Part shown: piece by piece, positions 53,295 to 61,943 of the stretch
Layout of the letters: every line of letters begins with the position of its first letter
How positions within the stretch are numbered: the stretch's first letter is position 1
NCBI GenBank assembly: GCA_937998865.1
Contig: CALLBR010000011.1
Span: 20,684-84,683 of the forward strand
Direction of reading: 5' to 3'
Length of the DNA: 64,000 nucleotides
Origin: an uncultured bacterium
GTDB taxonomy: Bacteria > Nitrospirota > Thermodesulfovibrionia > Thermodesulfovibrionales > Thermodesulfovibrionaceae
Notes under the pieces: model-generated
What the model was told of the DNA's origin: nothing
The model's database searches: none
Seen by the model: only the letters and a program-made list of their open reading frames with translations
Made by a program: the position numbers and the translations under genes

Positions 53295-55745
53295 TTAATT
53301 GACAGATGTAGTTACTTCTTCATGAACCTCTTCGAATGCAATATTATTACTCCTTAGTAACACCTTAATATTAGTAGCGCCTTTAAATCTGCCTTTCAAT
53401 ATCTCTTCTGAGAGAGGATCTTCTATTTCCCTTGCAATTGCTCTTCTCATTGGTCTTGCACCATAGGCAGGTTGATAATATTTATTCAAAATCCATTTTT
53501 TTACCTCTTCAGAGACAGAGAGGGTAAAACCAAAATCTGATAATTTTTTATTAGTTTCTTCAATTAATAGATCAATTATTGCCAAAAGATGAGGCTCCTC
53601 TAAAGGATGAAATACAACAATATCATCTACTCTGTTAAGGAATTCTGGATTGAATGTTTTTTTCAATTCGTCAAAAACATTGTCTTTAATCTTTGAGTAA
53701 ACTTCCTGGGAATCTTGCTTTCTAAATCCAAGAGGGGTAGACTTCTCTATCAATCTTGCTCCAATATTAGAGGTCATTATTATAATGGTATTTTTAAAGT
53801 CTACTTTTCTACCAAAACTATCTGTCAAAATACCCTCATCAAGAATTTGAAGGAGTAAATTAAAAACATCAGGATGAGCCTTCTCAATTTCATCAAATAA
53901 AACAACTGAATAGGGTCTCTTCCGGATCTTTTCTGTTAACTGTCCTCCCTCTTCATATCCTACATAGCCAGGAGGAGCTCCAATAAGTTTTGATACATTA
54001 AATTTTTCCATATATTCAGACATATCAAATTTTATTAAAGCATTTTCATCATTAAACATAAACTCTGCTAAGGCTTTTGCAAGCTCTGTTTTGCCAACAC
54101 CTGTTGGTCCTAGAAAGAAGAAGGAACCTATTGGTCTGTTTTTTGTTTTCAATCCTGCACGAGATCTTCTAATAGCCTTACACACGCTTTTTATTGCTTC
54201 ATCCTGTCCCACAATTCTCTTGTGTAAGGACTCCTCCATGTGTAAAAGTTTTTCCTTTTCTGTTTGTTCTATCTTAAATAGAGGTATGCCAGTCATTTTA
54301 GAAACAGTATAGGACACATCTTCAGCAGTAACAATGGGAACTTCTTTATAAATAGAGTCTTTCCATTTTTTATAATTTGATTCGTATATCCTTCTTAATT
54401 TATCTTCTTCATATTTTGTTTTTTGGGCTGCTAGTAAATCATGAAGTTTGATATATAGAGCTTTTTCTTTTGAGAGTTTTGTTAATTCAAATTCCATGTC
54501 TTTCAATTCCTGAGGAATTGTAGCTTTCTTGAGCTTTATTCTTGAAGCTGTTTCATCTATTACATCAATTGCTTTGTCAGGTAAATATCTATCTGTTATA
54601 TATCTATCTGAAAGTTTCACAGCCATTTCAATGGCTTCATCTGTTATTTTAACTTTGTGATGAACTTCATATTTCTCTTTTATTCCCTTCAAAATCTCTA
54701 TTGTTGTCTCAACTGTTGTAGGTTGAATATATACAGGTTGAAATCTCCTCTCTAAAGCCCCATCCTTTTCAATATATTTTCTATATTCTTGAGGAGTAGT
54801 AGCACCAATACACTGCAATTCTCCTCGAGAAAGAGCTGGTTTAAGCATATTTGAAGCATCAACTGAACCTTCTGCAGCACCAGCTCCTATTATTGTATGA
54901 AGTTCATCAATAAAGAGGATTATATTATCTGATTGCGTTGCTTCTCGCATAACTGCTTTAAGCCTTTCTTCAAATTGTCCACGATATTTTGTTCCAGCGA
55001 TTAAAGCTCCTAAGTCAAGGGCTATTATTCTTTTACCAATAAGTATATCAGGCACATCCCCTTCAACTATCTTTTGAGCAAGACCCTCTACAATAGCTGT
55101 TTTACCCACACCTGGTTCACCAATTATGACAGGGTTGTTCTTTATTCTTCTTCCTAAGATTTGAATTACTCTCTCTATTTCGTCTTCTCTTCCAATGACA
55201 GGATCAAGTTTTCCCTCTAATGCTAATGATGTTAAATCCCTTCCAAACTCATCAAGAGCTGGAGTATTTGTCCTCTTTTTCTCTCTTTGTTGATTAGATT
55301 GAAAATGGGGTCTTATTGAAAAATTTATTGTAAGCTGTCTAACTCCTAATAGGTTTACTCCTAAACTTCTTAATACTTTTCCAGCAGTACCCTCTTCTTC
55401 TTTTATAAGTCCCAAAAAAAGATGTTCGCTTCCTATGTAAGGATGCCCTAAAAGTCTTGCTTCTTCTACAGCATACTCCAACACTTTTTTTGCCCTGGGC
55501 GAGAAGGGTATTTCGCCATAGGTAAGGAGATTGCTCTCTGTGGATATTTTCTTCTCAATTTCATATCTAACATTTTCTGGTTGGATGCCGATTTTCCTTA
55601 ATATTGCTACTGGAATAGATTCTTCATCTCTTAAAATTGCCAACAATATATGCTCAGTATCGAGAAATTCACTATTTCTTTTTTCAGCCTCTTCTCTTGC
55701 ATATAATATAACTTTTCGACCTTTTTCTGTAAATTTTTCAAACAT
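53295..55745 (-). CDS. clpC: ATP-dependent Clp protease ATP-binding subunit ClpC
   Basis: N-terminal Clp repeats; two Walker A ([25 protein letters not shown]); UVR-like middle region. Confidence 0.95.
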
Positions 55746-55994: not shown

Positions 55995-56924
55995 ATGAAA
56001 AAAGTTGTTCTCCATTGTATAATTTTTCTCCTAATCTTTTTAACTATTAATTATGCCTGGAGCTTTTTAATTCCCAAGACCCTACTAATTTTGCCAGAAA
56101 ATAGTGCTGTAAAAATTAAATGGCTTTTAATTTCTGAAGAGAGAGATAAATATAAATCATCATACAAAGAAGCAAGTAATATACACTTTTTTTTAAACCA
56201 TAAAGATGAACCAATAATTATTTATAACTCCCAGATACTTTTTAATCCTAAAAGTGGATACTTAGCAAAATTTAAAAATCCTTTGAAGGCTGTAATATCT
56301 TTTGAAAATGGAGTTTCCTTTTTCTTTGATGGCAAAAATATGGGTTTTCTTGAAATTGAAAATAAAGACGAATTCCCTCCTCTTCTTTATGTAAAACCTT
56401 TCATAAAGATACCCTTCTCTAATGTAGAATTCTTTACTGGTGAGAATACCCTTTATGCCATGACAAGGAATCCAAAAACCAAAAAACAGGAGATATATCT
56501 TTTTGATCTAAATTCAAAAAACTTTAAAAAAATTGCCTCTCTTAATGAGTTCTTTCAAGTAATAAGTGGAAAAGGTGAACATTTATATTTGGTAAAGGGC
56601 AGATTAATTAAGGAGTTAAGGCAAGGAAAAATTACAAATGTATACGAACACCCAAGGGAAGAAATAACTGAAATTCAATATAATGAAAAAGTTGGACTTA
56701 TCTATAAAACATCAAATGGAGTAGGACTAATAAACAATAACTCTGCTATTGAATTTCTTCAGACAGAAAACCCGAAAATATATCTAAAAAATACAAGCCT
56801 CTATGTATTATTTAGCTACTTATCAGCAATTATGGAAATTAAAAACCTGGATGACCTAAAAAATTATAACTTTAAAGTAGAAAAAATCATCGATATTCAG
56901 CAAACTTTTAAGGAGGATGAGTAA
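55995..56924 (+). CDS. hypothetical exported protein (309 aa)
   Basis: N-terminal signal sequence; beta-rich; ATG of next gene overlaps stop. Confidence 0.8.
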   Translation: MKKVVLHCIIFLLIFLTINYAWSFLIPKTLLILPENSAVKIKWLLISEERDKYKSSYKEASNIHFFLNHKDEPIIIYNSQILFNPKSGYLAKFKNPLKAVISFENGVSFFFDGKNMGFLEIENKDEFPPLLYVKPFIKIPFSNVEFFTGENTLYAMTRNPKTKKQEIYLFDLNSKNFKKIASLNEFFQVISGKGEHLYLVKGRLIKELRQGKITNVYEHPREEITEIQYNEKVGLIYKTSNGVGLINNNSAIEFLQTENPKIYLKNTSLYVLFSYLSAIMEIKNLDDLKNYNFKVEKIIDIQQTFKEDE

Positions 56925-58036
56925 TGAATAAGCTTTTAAGTTTTTTAATAATTCTTTTATTAATTATGGAATCTTCCTTATCCTATGGAGGAAATATACC
57001 AATGCCTACTGGTAGGACATGTGATGGATCTCAGTTGTTTGATGGTACTTTTATCCCAGCTGGACAAGTAAGGGAAATAACCTATGGAGGCGTAAGATAC
57101 AGATGCGTTGGATGTGGAGATTGCACTCCTATAAGTAGTGGTTCATCAGGTAGCTCTTCATCATCTACTCCCTCCATCCCTTCTTATGGAACTACTTCAC
57201 AGCAAATAGCAATAGGACTCATGGGTGCTTTTTTAAGCGGATTCTTTAGCTCTCTTATGAGTGGAATTTTTGATGATGACTCCGCTTACACTGCCCAAAA
57301 ACAGAGAGAGTATGAAGAACAGCAAAGGAAAAAGTACGAAGAGGAAAAAAGAAAACAAGAAGAACATAAAAAACAACTACTCTCTCAATACAACACTCTC
57401 TTAGTTCAGGCAAAAAATCAATTGCCCTCTACTTCATTACAAAGTTCATCTCCCTTTTCATTTCAAACTCTTGGCAGTCAACTTACTGCCTTTCAGTGGC
57501 AATCCCCATCAAGTAGTCCTTCAGTTAGTGATAGTCTAAACAGCAAAGAGGAATATCTAAGAAGTACCGCTCATATTAATAAAATTGATATTAATAGTAT
57601 TCTTGGCAATGTAATACAAGAGAAAATAACTGAAAAAATAGAAGAAAAAATCGAAGATTATGGTGGTAAACTTATGGAAAAACTTGATAAGAAATATGGA
57701 AAAGAGTGGGGCTCCAAATTTTATGAAAAGGGATTGCCAATCATAAAAATTGCAGTTACAGCTAAAACCGAGGGAATTCCCGCTGCTGGAGCAGAAACGA
57801 TAAATTATGGTATTTCTCTCCTCCCCATGCCCACAATTCAATCAGAAATCTCTGACATAGGAAGAAAAATATACACAAAAATTGCCTTTTCAGCGATAGA
57901 TATGTTTCTTACAGAGACTGAAAGAGCCGCTGAAATTCATGGATTAAATTTCAATAAAGAGGAGTTCCTTGAGAATTTAGAAAACGATATGAACATAGCA
58001 CAGAAAATAATATATAAATGGCTTAGAGGAGACTAA
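56924..58036 (+). CDS. hypothetical exported protein with Cys motif and Ser/charged low-complexity segments (370 aa)
   Basis: Signal peptide; YRCVGCGDC; SSGSSGSSSSS; KQREYEEQQRKKYEEEKRKQEE. Confidence 0.8.
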   Translation: MNKLLSFLIILLLIMESSLSYGGNIPMPTGRTCDGSQLFDGTFIPAGQVREITYGGVRYRCVGCGDCTPISSGSSGSSSSSTPSIPSYGTTSQQIAIGLMGAFLSGFFSSLMSGIFDDDSAYTAQKQREYEEQQRKKYEEEKRKQEEHKKQLLSQYNTLLVQAKNQLPSTSLQSSSPFSFQTLGSQLTAFQWQSPSSSPSVSDSLNSKEEYLRSTAHINKIDINSILGNVIQEKITEKIEEKIEDYGGKLMEKLDKKYGKEWGSKFYEKGLPIIKIAVTAKTEGIPAAGAETINYGISLLPMPTIQSEISDIGRKIYTKIAFSAIDMFLTETERAAEIHGLNFNKEEFLENLENDMNIAQKIIYKWLRGD

Positions 58037-58037
58037 T

Positions 58038-60170
58038 ATGAAAACCTTAAAAATTTTATTGACTCTATATCTTTTTACTCTCCTCATTAGTTGTGAACCT
58101 ATTAGATACACCACCAAATTAGAACCCTTTAACATAGAACCACCGAAGGAATCACCACAGGTTAAAAAACTTAACTACAATGCCATAATTCTCATTGATG
58201 AAGAACAAATTTTAAGAAATACTGAGCATGATTATGATTTTGGCATTATCCATACCATAGAATTTCCTGTGGGTAATATACTTAAACAGATTCTTCCCCT
58301 TTACTTTAACCAAATGTTTTTAGAAACAAGATATGAAAAAAATCTCCCTCTCTTATTTCCTCCTAAAACTCTTATAATTACGGCAGAAGGAGACAATATT
58401 TATTTCAAAGAAAAAAGAAGTTATCCCATAGCTTTCAATTTAGAAGCCAGGACAAAATTTTTCATCTATGACAATGATTTGTTACCTATCTCTACACCTT
58501 TATTAGGCAATGGCTCTGGAAGAATTGAAAAACCAGGACTTTTCTCCTATCTAAGTGAAAAAGACTACAGTAATACTGCCTATCAAGCCTTGCTTAAATC
58601 TGTAAATGATGCTATCGAAAAAATTCATAAGGCAATACAAAATCCTAATGCTCAGATTTCAGAAGCTAAAAAAATCATAAATAATGATCCCACAAGTGTT
58701 TTTGCCTACAAAGTAATTGCTAATTTGTCACTAAAAATTAATGACATTCCAGAGGCTTTAGCAGCTTCCCAGATGATAGAAAAACTTTCTCCAAATGATA
58801 AAGATGCCTATGTACTTCTTCATAAATGTTACTTAGCAAGCAAAAGATATAAAGAGGCTTTGATTCATCTTGAAAAAGCAATCTCCTTGGCACCTCAAAA
58901 TAGAAATTTGATACTAAAACTCAATGAATTTTATATTGAAAGAGGTAAATATAATAAGGCCATTGAGTCTCTTGAAAGATACTTAGAAAAAAACCCAGAT
59001 GACAACTATATGCCCTTTTATTTGGCAAAGCTTTACTATAAAATGGGCAAATACAATGAAGCACGAAGAATTGCAGAGAAATCCGGTGAAAGCCTATCTT
59101 CTTCAGGCATTGGAGTAACTATAGTAAAAATTGAAGATCAATATCCTAAAATTAAACAAATTCTACCAAATAGTCCTTCCCAAAAAGCAGGTCTTCAGGT
59201 AAATTATGAAATAACTGAAATTGATGGGAAATCAACACTTCCACTAAAATTAATGGATATCATTGAAATGTTAAGAGGAAAAGAAGGAAGTGATGTGAAG
59301 CTAAAAATTAAAAAACCTGAATCAGAGGAGGCTTTTGCAGTAACATTGACCCGTCAAAAATTCTATAAAGACTCTTACGCTGCCTCTTACTTAGGACTTT
59401 TAGCATTAGTCTATCTTGAAGAAAAAGAAAAGAGCAAAGCTAAAGAATATATTGAAGAAGCTGAAAGGTTTTTCCCCACAGATACCTTAATTAGCTATGC
59501 AAAAGCAAGATATTATTTACAGGAAAAAGAATTCAAAAAAGCTTTATCTATAGCATCTTCTTTGGAAGACAATGACTTGGCTATGGTTATAAATACAATA
59601 GCTTATGCAAAATTAGGAAAAGCAGATGAAAGTGTCAAATTTTTTAAAAAAATTGCACAATCTAAAAATTTTTTCATAACAGAAAAAGTAAGGGATGAAT
59701 TACTCTCAAGCCTCTCTTCTTATGCAGAGGGAATCGAGAAAAAAGCTTATGAGTATGAAAAAACAGGACACCATGCATTAGCCTTAAAAGAATATGCTAA
59801 TCTTCTTGAAATATCCAATCCTCAGAAAGCTCAATGGATAAGAAGTAGAGTAGCAAAAATAATCTCTCAAAATCCCTCACTGGCGGATATAAAAGACGAA
59901 GCAAGAAAACATTTCCTCCATGCAGAAGTTTTATTTTCCAATAACAAATTAGAAGAAGCTATGGAAGAATTAGAAAAAGCCTCGAAGCTTCAGCCATTTA
60001 ATCCTCAAATTTACTTTAATAAGGCAATTATCTATGAAAAAATGTCAGATTATGCAAATGCTATTGAGAACATGGAAATCTATCTACAGCTTAATCCACT
60101 AGACCCAAAGGCACAGACAATAAAAGATCAGATTTATAAATGGAGATTCATCCTTGAAAAAGAAACTTAG
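58038..60170 (+). CDS. TPR- and PDZ-containing lipoprotein (710 aa)
   Basis: Lipobox LLISC; TPR repeats; PDZ-like KIKQILPNSPSQKAGLQVNYEITEIDGKS. Confidence 0.85.
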   Translation: MKTLKILLTLYLFTLLISCEPIRYTTKLEPFNIEPPKESPQVKKLNYNAIILIDEEQILRNTEHDYDFGIIHTIEFPVGNILKQILPLYFNQMFLETRYEKNLPLLFPPKTLIITAEGDNIYFKEKRSYPIAFNLEARTKFFIYDNDLLPISTPLLGNGSGRIEKPGLFSYLSEKDYSNTAYQALLKSVNDAIEKIHKAIQNPNAQISEAKKIINNDPTSVFAYKVIANLSLKINDIPEALAASQMIEKLSPNDKDAYVLLHKCYLASKRYKEALIHLEKAISLAPQNRNLILKLNEFYIERGKYNKAIESLERYLEKNPDDNYMPFYLAKLYYKMGKYNEARRIAEKSGESLSSSGIGVTIVKIEDQYPKIKQILPNSPSQKAGLQVNYEITEIDGKSTLPLKLMDIIEMLRGKEGSDVKLKIKKPESEEAFAVTLTRQKFYKDSYAASYLGLLALVYLEEKEKSKAKEYIEEAERFFPTDTLISYAKARYYLQEKEFKKALSIASSLEDNDLAMVINTIAYAKLGKADESVKFFKKIAQSKNFFITEKVRDELLSSLSSYAEGIEKKAYEYEKTGHHALALKEYANLLEISNPQKAQWIRSRVAKIISQNPSLADIKDEARKHFLHAEVLFSNNKLEEAMEELEKASKLQPFNPQIYFNKAIIYEKMSDYANAIENMEIYLQLNPLDPKAQTIKDQIYKWRFILEKET

Positions 60171-60651
60171 TATAATAATTCTACTTTTTTTCTTGATAGG
60201 ATGTGCCTCTCAAACAAGTGTTAAACCTGATTCTCTTTTTCAAATTAAGGAGGTAAAAAGTGTTTCGGTAATAGTAGACACAATTATTCCTTCCTCTGAA
60301 AAAGAGATTGAGGCTATTGAGCAAAAGCTAATTGAAAAATTAAGAGAAGCAAATATTTTTAGTAAAGTCTCCATAAAAAACCAAAAATCTGATTTGATAA
60401 TTAAGGTTCAGATAGAAGAGCTTGTTAAAGTCTCAAAATCTGATCGTTTCTGGTTCGGTTCCCTGGCAGGAAGAGCAAAAGTGGCAGGTAAAGTAACTCT
60501 AATTGAGAGTTTTTCAGGGAAAGTCTTAGGAAGTTTTGATTTGGAGGCAATCTCTTCAGGAGGAACAATTTTTGCTGGAACAACTGAACAGGCAATAGAT
60601 AATTTTGTTGAAAAGTTAACTGACTTCATCCTCACTCATGTGGTAATTTAG
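60154..60651 (+). CDS. lipoprotein, DUF4410-like
   Basis: Lipobox FLIGC; SDLIIKVQIEELVKV...RAKVAGKVTLIESFSGKVLGSFDLEA. Confidence 0.7.
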   Translation: MKKKLSIIILLFFLIGCASQTSVKPDSLFQIKEVKSVSVIVDTIIPSSEKEIEAIEQKLIEKLREANIFSKVSIKNQKSDLIIKVQIEELVKVSKSDRFWFGSLAGRAKVAGKVTLIESFSGKVLGSFDLEAISSGGTIFAGTTEQAIDNFVEKLTDFILTHVVI

Positions 60652-60725: not shown

Positions 60726-61943
60726 ATGTTGATTGTTCAGAAATATGGAGGTACTTCTGTTGCAAACATTGAAAGAATAAAAGCTGTGGCTGAAAGAGTC
60801 TCTCAAACAGCAAAAGAAGGACACAAGGTAGTTGTGGTAGTATCAGCTATGGCAGGAGAAACAGACAAGCTAATAGGACTTGCCCATCAGGTTTGCCCAA
60901 ATCCTCCTGAAAGAGAAATGGACCTTCTTTTATCATCAGGTGAAAGAGTAACATCAGCCCTTACAGCTATGGCGCTCCATGGATTAGGACATAAAGCAAT
61001 AGCCCTTACAGGAAGACAAATGGGAATAATTACAGACGCTGTTCATACCAAAGCAAAAATTGAAAAAATTATAGCCACAAGAGCTGTAAAAGCCTTGGAA
61101 GAGGGATACATAGTTGTTGTAGCAGGTTTTCAAGGAATTACAGAGGAAGAGGACGTAACAACCTTAGGAAGAGGTGGTTCTGATCTAACAGCCGTTGCAA
61201 TTGCTGCTGCTTTGAATGCGGACATATGTGAGATTTATACTGATGTTGATGGCGTGTATACTGCAGATCCAAACATAGTGCCTAATGCGATAAAACTTGA
61301 TAAAATTTCTTATGAAGAAATGCTTGAGCTTGCATCTCTTGGCGCAAAAGTATTACAAACTCGCTCTGTTGAGTTTGCAATGAAGTATAGTGTACCTGTC
61401 GTTGTGCGCTCAAGTTTTAACAATAACCCAGGAACCTTAGTTACAAAGGAGGATAAAGACATGGAAAAAGTAGTTGTATCAGGTATTGCTCACGATAAAA
61501 ATCAGGCAAAAATTACAATCGTAAAAGTGCCTGATAGACCTGGTATTGCCGGCAAACTATTTAGAACTATTGCAGATGCAAACATTGTAGTGGACATGAT
61601 TGTACAAAACATAAGCAGCGACGGCAAAGCTACAGATATCTCCTTCACAGTACCAAAAACCGATGCTAAAAAAGCTTTTGATATAGCCGAAAAAATATGT
61701 AAAGAATTGGGAGCAGAAAAAGTTTTACTTAATGATTCCATCGCTAAAGTTTCCATTGTTGGTGTAGGAATGAGAACTCATTCAGGAGTTGCTGCTCAAA
61801 TGTTTGAAACTCTTGCCAGTCATGGAATAAACATAATGGCTATAAGTACCTCTGAAATAAAAATATCTTGTCTCATTGATTCAAAATACACTGAGCTTGC
61901 AGTAAGAGTGCTTCATGATACTTTTAAATTAGGTGGGCAATAG
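60726..61943 (+). CDS. lysC: aspartate kinase
   Basis: [33 protein letters not shown], tandem ACT domains. Confidence 0.97.

Follow-up and report, generated by a model that had tools for sequence, protein, structure and literature searches.

The stretch of DNA analyzed here (the window; 64,000 nucleotides from the 1.75 Mb genome G000 of an uncultured bacterium, probably of the genus Thermodesulfovibrio) contains four contiguous genes, designated here g1 to g4, and their sequences and distribution indicate that the products of the first three are likely to be parts of one envelope complex. In the reading that we prefer, to which we assign a probability of about 0.5, this complex would be encoded by a mobile cassette and would be adaptor-like, with g3 as its anchor and hub, g1 docked on g3, g2 as a partner or client, and g4 as an accessory protein. 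Owing to the fusions of the relevant genes in two families and the transfer of the whole cassette, four genes of "hypothetical" envelope proteins become a complex that can be tested and whose core is defined. This core is found again in Nitrospirota, Deltaproteobacteria, Syntrophaceae, Aminicenantes, and Acidobacteria, and provides a handle on TPR-PDZ lipoproteins, a group annotated by repeats alone.

Organization of the operon

The four genes occupy positions 55995-60651 of the plus strand, with neighboring genes either abutting or overlapping by 1-17 bases. According to the list of open reading frames and the sequence, all of them encode exported proteins (Table 1). One base is shared at the g1/g2 junction (TAATG), a gap of one base separates g2 from g3, and g3 and g4 overlap by 17 bases. 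The operon is flanked by the divergent clpC gene, ending at position 55745, and by lysC, starting at position 60726; no tRNA insertion site adjoining it was found. The coordinates, spacing, and sequence features of all four open reading frames agree with the original prediction, as do the export signals read from the sequence, namely, lipoboxes in g3 and g4 and Sec-type N-termini in g1 and g2. The earlier description of the locus as an envelope/lipoprotein operon is accurate for all four proteins with respect to export, but with respect to lipid modification only for g3 and g4, and not for g1 and g2.

In a scan of the operon for promoters and terminators, the number of sites was not above that in shuffled sequences, and thus the probable co-transcription of g1-g4 is deduced from gene spacing only. 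The dN/dS values calculated against the nearest relative (0.17, 0.21, 0.28, and 0.45 for the four genes, with a range of 0.17-0.28 for g1-g2-g3) indicate purifying selection in each case, which argues that the gene set is more than a chance arrangement.

Table 1. Genes of the operon and selected features of their products (positions in the window).
Feature	Position	Strand	Description	Basis or remarks
g1	55995..56924	+	exported protein, predicted six-bladed beta-propeller, 309 aa	ORF, AF2, Foldseek; no Pfam family
g2	56924..58036	+	exported Cys4 and coiled-coil protein with helical C-terminal domain, 370 aa	ORF, alignments
g2 cysteine module	57020..57124	+	residues 33-67	fibronectin type I likeness in model only, without sequence support
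g2 hydrophobic/small-residue helix	57194..57277	+	residues 91-118	helix 91-113 in model
g2 charged coiled coil	57278..57433	+	residues 119-170	sequence; helix 123-165 in model
g2 C-terminal helical domain	57599..58033	+	residues 226-370	common to the g2-like protein of L186 (hhalign E 1.6e-10)
g3	58038..60170	+	lipoprotein with N-terminal domain, TPR, PDZ, and TPR, 710 aa	ORF, Pfam, NCBIfam, alignment
g3 lipobox cysteine	58092..58094	+	C19 (...LLISC19, then E), Glu at +2	C19 and E20 invariant
g3 PDZ domain	59097..59348	+	residues 354-437; peptide-binding SGIG loop kept	Pfam PDZ/PDZ_6
g3 C-terminal TPR end	59883..60167	+	residues 616-710; motif PFNPQIYF...KDQIYKW	best conserved part of g3
g4	60154..60651	+	DUF4410 lipoprotein, optional member, 165 aa, TTG start	PF14366 E 2e-10; distribution

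Predicted products of the operon

No family match to g1 was obtained in the Pfam and NCBIfam scans. The AlphaFold2 model of this protein (built with 10 sequences) is all-beta, with pLDDT of 83 and pTM of 0.78, in line with the exported beta-rich protein that had been proposed. A Foldseek comparison of the model with PDB gave 307 matches at E <= 1e-3, the top ones being propellers. The closest of them are six-bladed (SMP30, gluconolactonase, and Pizza6; E 9e-7 to 2e-5), and it is from these structural matches that the number of blades in the predicted g1 propeller is taken. The assignment of the fold comes from Foldseek, the Pfam scan having given no TolB/PD40 sequence match.

The g2 protein, also devoid of a family match in the library scans, is a Ser-rich exported protein with the CVGCGDC motif and a charged coiled coil, just as originally described. 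The four cysteines of g2 (C33, C61, C64, and C67) are all invariant in the alignment of sequences from the genus. They are followed by a Ser-rich linker, a conserved hydrophobic helix (77% mean pairwise identity of residues 91-118 in the genus, with the hydropathy maximum at residue 95), the charged coil, and the helical C-terminal domain. The AF2 model of g2 is of low overall confidence (pLDDT 52), and a Foldseek search with the whole model returned nothing at E <= 1e-3. The only fold match of interest concerns the cysteine module of the model, which resembles fibronectin type I folds (Foldseek probability 0.97-1.0, E 0.1-0.3, local pLDDT of about 75). We do not adopt this assignment, as the likeness is confined to the model, with no fn1 in the Pfam scan and no FnI chain in sequence searches of PDB. 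An iron-sulfur site at CVGCGDC was rejected; the Fer4-like matches were all sub-threshold, and g2 is an exported protein with four cysteines.

The lipobox and the Pfam matches to TPR_2 (E 8e-23) and PDZ_6 (E 6e-9) identify g3 as the 710-aa TPR and PDZ lipoprotein that had been predicted. Residues G357 and G359 of its PDZ domain are invariant in the alignment, and the solved PDZ domains nearest to it in sequence are those of CtpB-type (S41) proteases. The mean pairwise identity of residues 616-710 is 70%, and 35 of these 95 positions are invariant. The best NCBIfam match of g3 is PrsT, a PEP-CTERM TPR lipoprotein (TIGR02917, E 2e-27), but the score of 95 bits is far from the cut-off of 312, and the match spans the TPR part only. 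The N-terminal domain of g3 was considered as a relative of g4, i.e., of DUF4410, and rejected (hhalign E 0.33). Its presence in the lipoprotein encoded by locus L187 was not supported either, despite an apparent likeness by eye (E 0.04 over 17 columns).

The g4 lipobox was read from the sequence as ...FLIGC17 followed by A. With 41.1 bits against DUF4410 (PF14366; gathering cut-off 26), g4 belongs to this family, as had been suggested. The family is of unknown function, and our literature search retrieved no paper that names it. A DUF4410 paralog of g4 is encoded away from the cassette in G013 (L085 5345-5842), where it adjoins a gene of a TraT-like lipoprotein.

Distribution in the genus and horizontal transfer

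Among 11 genomes of the genus Thermodesulfovibrio, each at least 90% complete, g1-g2-g3 are intact and in this order in nine (G008 included, where a contig break falls inside g3). In G012 only g3 and the end of g2 are present, at a contig end. In the genome G010, g3 is absent and g1 and g2 are reduced to decayed remnants (L081 8235-8872), and the prepilin-like gene beside these remnants is the one that lies 3' of the intact cassette in G013 (L077); this represents a joint loss of the cassette. The genes flanking the cassette differ in most genomes of the genus. The co-occurrence on which the original prediction depended was accordingly found for g1, g2, and g3, which stay together at different chromosomal sites.

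The position of g4 is less regular. It comes after g3 in G000, G009, G004, G005, G015, and G001. In G008 its place is between g1 and g2, in G013 it is located elsewhere, and G014, G002, and G012 lack it. Since g4 is missing or displaced in several genomes, the unit is g1-g2-g3 with g4 as an optional member, and the four-part composition proposed earlier had to be given up. The cassette of G007, another genome of the genus, has diverged and contains g2-like, g3-like, and FecR genes. Directly upstream of the cassette of G004, a long repeat-rich protein is encoded (L072 12499-14610; SGTISANATATSE... repeats). The genus also has a second family of TPR-PDZ proteins, of about 640 aa, encoded in L082, L083, L084, and L087 next to a DUF2330-like protein of 342 aa.

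The whole cassette, including g4, is also present in G181, a genome of another family. While ClpC of G181 is at 70% to that of the window, as compared with 87-98% inside the genus, the G181 cassette is sister to that of G015 in the g1, g2, and g3 trees alike, at 72-76% identity. The gene that adjoins the G181 cassette on the g4 side is 60% identical to its counterparts in the family of G181 and 48-53% identical to those in the genus. As this gene is typical of the family, a misbinned contig can be ruled out, which indicates that the cassette was transferred. For the pairwise distances, the Spearman coefficients are 0.64-0.89 among g1, g2, and g3, and 0.22-0.44 between each of these and ClpC (36 pairs from nine genomes, the pairs not being independent). 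The different insertion sites, the poor agreement with the species marker, and the whole transfer to another family indicate that the cassette appears to be horizontally mobile.

Relatives in other lineages and gene fusions

A wider search for g3 relatives, with a profile of the region from PDZ to the protein end (A1) and with the C-terminal TPR motif as a pattern, was also performed. In Deltaproteobacteria, Syntrophaceae, Aminicenantes, Acidobacteria, and other Nitrospirota, the profile search identified relatives of 27-35% identity. Outside the genus, the neighboring gene could be seen at 17 distinct g3-like loci, and in 15 of these cases a g2-like gene adjoins the g3-like one. A FecR/coil gene is also present at most of the g3-like loci outside the genus, usually in place of g1; the FecR domain encoded beside g2-g3 in other lineages matches PF04773 with E 2e-10. 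As this g2-g3 core, joined by a FecR/coil protein as the third component, occurs in several phyla, the cassette of the window is one lineage's version of a more widespread and uncharacterised g2-g3 module.

Of 396 genomes of the phylum, 15 encode relatives of g1; these are genomes of the genus, G181, and four more (G018, G329, G352, and G102). At all of these g1 loci, a g2-like/coil gene and a TPR gene adjoin g1 or are fused to it, the exception being the decayed locus of G010. Except in some Nitrospirota, the FecR/coil protein is found in place of g1, so the propeller is not essential to the core. The FecR protein of L176 was tried as a g1 relative and rejected on the basis of a negative shuffle control (10/60).

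In two families other than that of the window, f4 and f22 (a count of families and not of independent origins), the propeller is a part of a larger protein. A single 998-aa frame of L186 combines the g1 propeller with ankyrin repeats and PDZ, and lies directly downstream of the gene of a g2-like protein; the C-terminal domain of this protein is matched by that of g2 (hhalign E 1.6e-10). In L175, a single 834-aa frame comprises the propeller, ankyrin repeats, and the TPR end, directly downstream of the gene of a coil protein, the C-terminus of which is more weakly similar to g2 (E 0.0018, 0/60 shuffles). Of all the evidence, these fusions point most strongly to g1 and g3 acting in one complex. 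Two further families, represented by L177 and L187, retain the order of g2-like protein, propeller, and TPR lipoprotein. The propeller of L187 matches the g1 profile with E 5.8e-11, and the weaker match of that of L177 is supported by a shuffle control of 0/60 and a collinear alignment.

Several other features of these loci were noted. The fusion gene of L186 is followed by a gene of the DUF2330-like type that accompanies the second TPR-PDZ family of the genus. Serpin genes, which are unusual for bacteria, lie beside or near module genes in Nitrospirota (PF00079; L175 9021-10226, E 8e-119, and L128 14595-15914, E 7e-125), and a possible one was seen by eye at the start of L082. In L176 (G150), the g2-like and g3-like genes are in line with genes of FecR-TPR, DUF4384, CHASE2/cyclase-like, and CHAT-TPR proteins. 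The g2-like protein encoded at L131 2471-3862 has a C-terminus that by eye is NlpC/P60-like (LQPGDVLL...H...), without a Pfam match.

Proposed complex and alternative explanations

Because g1, g2, and g3 travel together and the propeller is fused to the scaffold in two distant relatives, it is very probable that they specify one undescribed envelope machine. The retained synteny and the two fusions support the single complex of the original prediction for these three proteins, but not for g4, which is not fixed. The system can be called undescribed in the sense that no family library or solved structure places all four proteins in a characterised system, and our literature search found no paper describing the gene set. 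As regards its composition, the term applies in a narrower sense, since the g2-g3 core spans several phyla.

By the +2 rule for lipoboxes, the lipid tail of g3 would anchor the complex most likely to the outer membrane, where the TPR arms of g3, as the hub, would bind partners and its PDZ domain could take the C-terminus of a protein. The C-terminus of g1 (...QTF-COOH) was considered as such a ligand; an end of the T-F/L/I type was found in 7 of 10 genomes, but g1 of the window ends with KEDE, and this candidate is not put forward here. The g1 propeller would dock on g3. The g2 protein, a cysteine-capped coiled coil with a hydrophobic helix that is probably disulfide-locked, would be a constant partner of g3 or a client handled by it, a role that is a guess in view of the poor model. 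The complex would most likely act as an adaptor of the NlpI/LbcA type, which captures and positions envelope proteins without catalysis, and g4 would be its optional accessory lipoprotein.

TPR lipoproteins are established adaptors of PDZ proteases (PMC8764530, PMC5686067). The g3 protein, with its lipobox cysteine C19 and TPR repeats, resembles the lipoproteins of the NlpI-Prc and LbcA-CtpA systems in being a TPR lipoprotein, probably of the outer membrane, that is tied to PDZ biology, its own PDZ domain being nearest to those of the CtpB type (PMC5686067, PMC8764530). In contrast to these systems, g3 itself bears the PDZ domain, the operon encodes no protease, and the propeller and the Cys-coil protein have no counterparts among their components. 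We do not claim membership of the complex in adaptor-protease systems; NlpI and LbcA may serve as its nearest working model. The lack of a catalytic or Ctp partner in the operon is a counterpoint to the adaptor function; in its favor, an S41/PDZ protease is encoded in the genome of the window, on another contig.

The fast and mobile evolution of the cassette fits a role facing competitors or the surface as well as it fits an adaptor role, and the neighborhoods with CHAT, FecR, DUF4384, and serpin genes hint at another function. A broader possibility, which we consider tentatively and with less confidence than the adaptor-like complex, is a hitherto undescribed multi-phylum envelope machine spread by horizontal transfer, with a fixed core of the Cys-capped coil and the TPR-PDZ scaffold, an exchangeable third part (the beta-propeller in some Nitrospirota and the FecR/coil protein elsewhere), and a function unlike that of Tol-Pal, BAM, or adaptor-protease systems.

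The Tol-Pal system comprises the six-bladed propeller TolB, the coil/TPR protein CpoB/YbgF, and the lipoprotein Pal, while the accessory lipoproteins of BAM include the propeller BamB and the TPR protein BamD. The parts list of g1, g2, and g3 is the same as that of Tol-Pal, and the propeller and TPR lipoprotein are shared with BAM. A tethering or assembly complex of the outer membrane built in this manner, which would build or brace an envelope structure and capture no clients, is compatible with these parts (a six-bladed propeller, a coiled coil, and a TPR lipoprotein) and with the fusion of the propeller to TPR/Ank parts. We consider it unlikely, as Pfam and NCBIfam scans detected no OmpA-like peptidoglycan-binding domain (such as that of Pal), POTRA, or barrel in the four proteins. 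Moreover, the operon encodes neither TolA/Q/R nor a BamA-type POTRA/barrel protein, g1 is not a lipoprotein, g3 bears a PDZ domain, and the cassette is mobile, dispensable, and decayed in G010, unlike those conserved systems.

An equally unlikely explanation is a system of antagonism or secretion, in which g1 and g3 would carry or hold g2 as an effector-like protein that is secreted and whose C-terminal part can be exchanged. The g2-like proteins do share the N-terminal part and differ in C-termini (the coil type, the helical type of the genus, and the NlpC/P60-like one of L131), and the cassette is horizontally transferred. However, the L131 C-terminus lacks a Pfam match, no toxin, immunity, or secretion family was detected with Pfam, NCBIfam, or PADLOC, and the C-terminus of g2 is well conserved in the genus (69% pairwise identity) and not hypervariable. 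An anti-phage defense system was rejected, as PADLOC gave only weak TPR cross-matches (PDC-M71B, E 1e-7, in the TPR region) and matches at chance level.

A slightly lower probability can be given to a periplasmic sensing module, in which g3 together with g1 or the FecR protein would read an envelope signal and relay it onward. In Burkholderia, FecR and CHASE2 genes belong to one biofilm-regulating operon (PMC5192318), which, together with the FecR domain proteins adjoining g2-g3 in other lineages and the L176 locus with FecR, DUF4384, CHASE2-cyclase-like, and CHAT genes, speaks for such a function. None of the genes in the operon of the window, however, encodes a FecR protein, a kinase, a cyclase, or a sigma/anti-sigma factor, and the intact FecR proteins that were found consist of a coil and FecR, without an evident regulator. 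Least probable of all is that separate envelope genes are merely co-transcribed neighbors whose products do not associate, since this agrees with the coming and going of g4 but not with the joint transfer and joint decay of the cassette, its reordering with retention in L177 and L187, and the two fusions.
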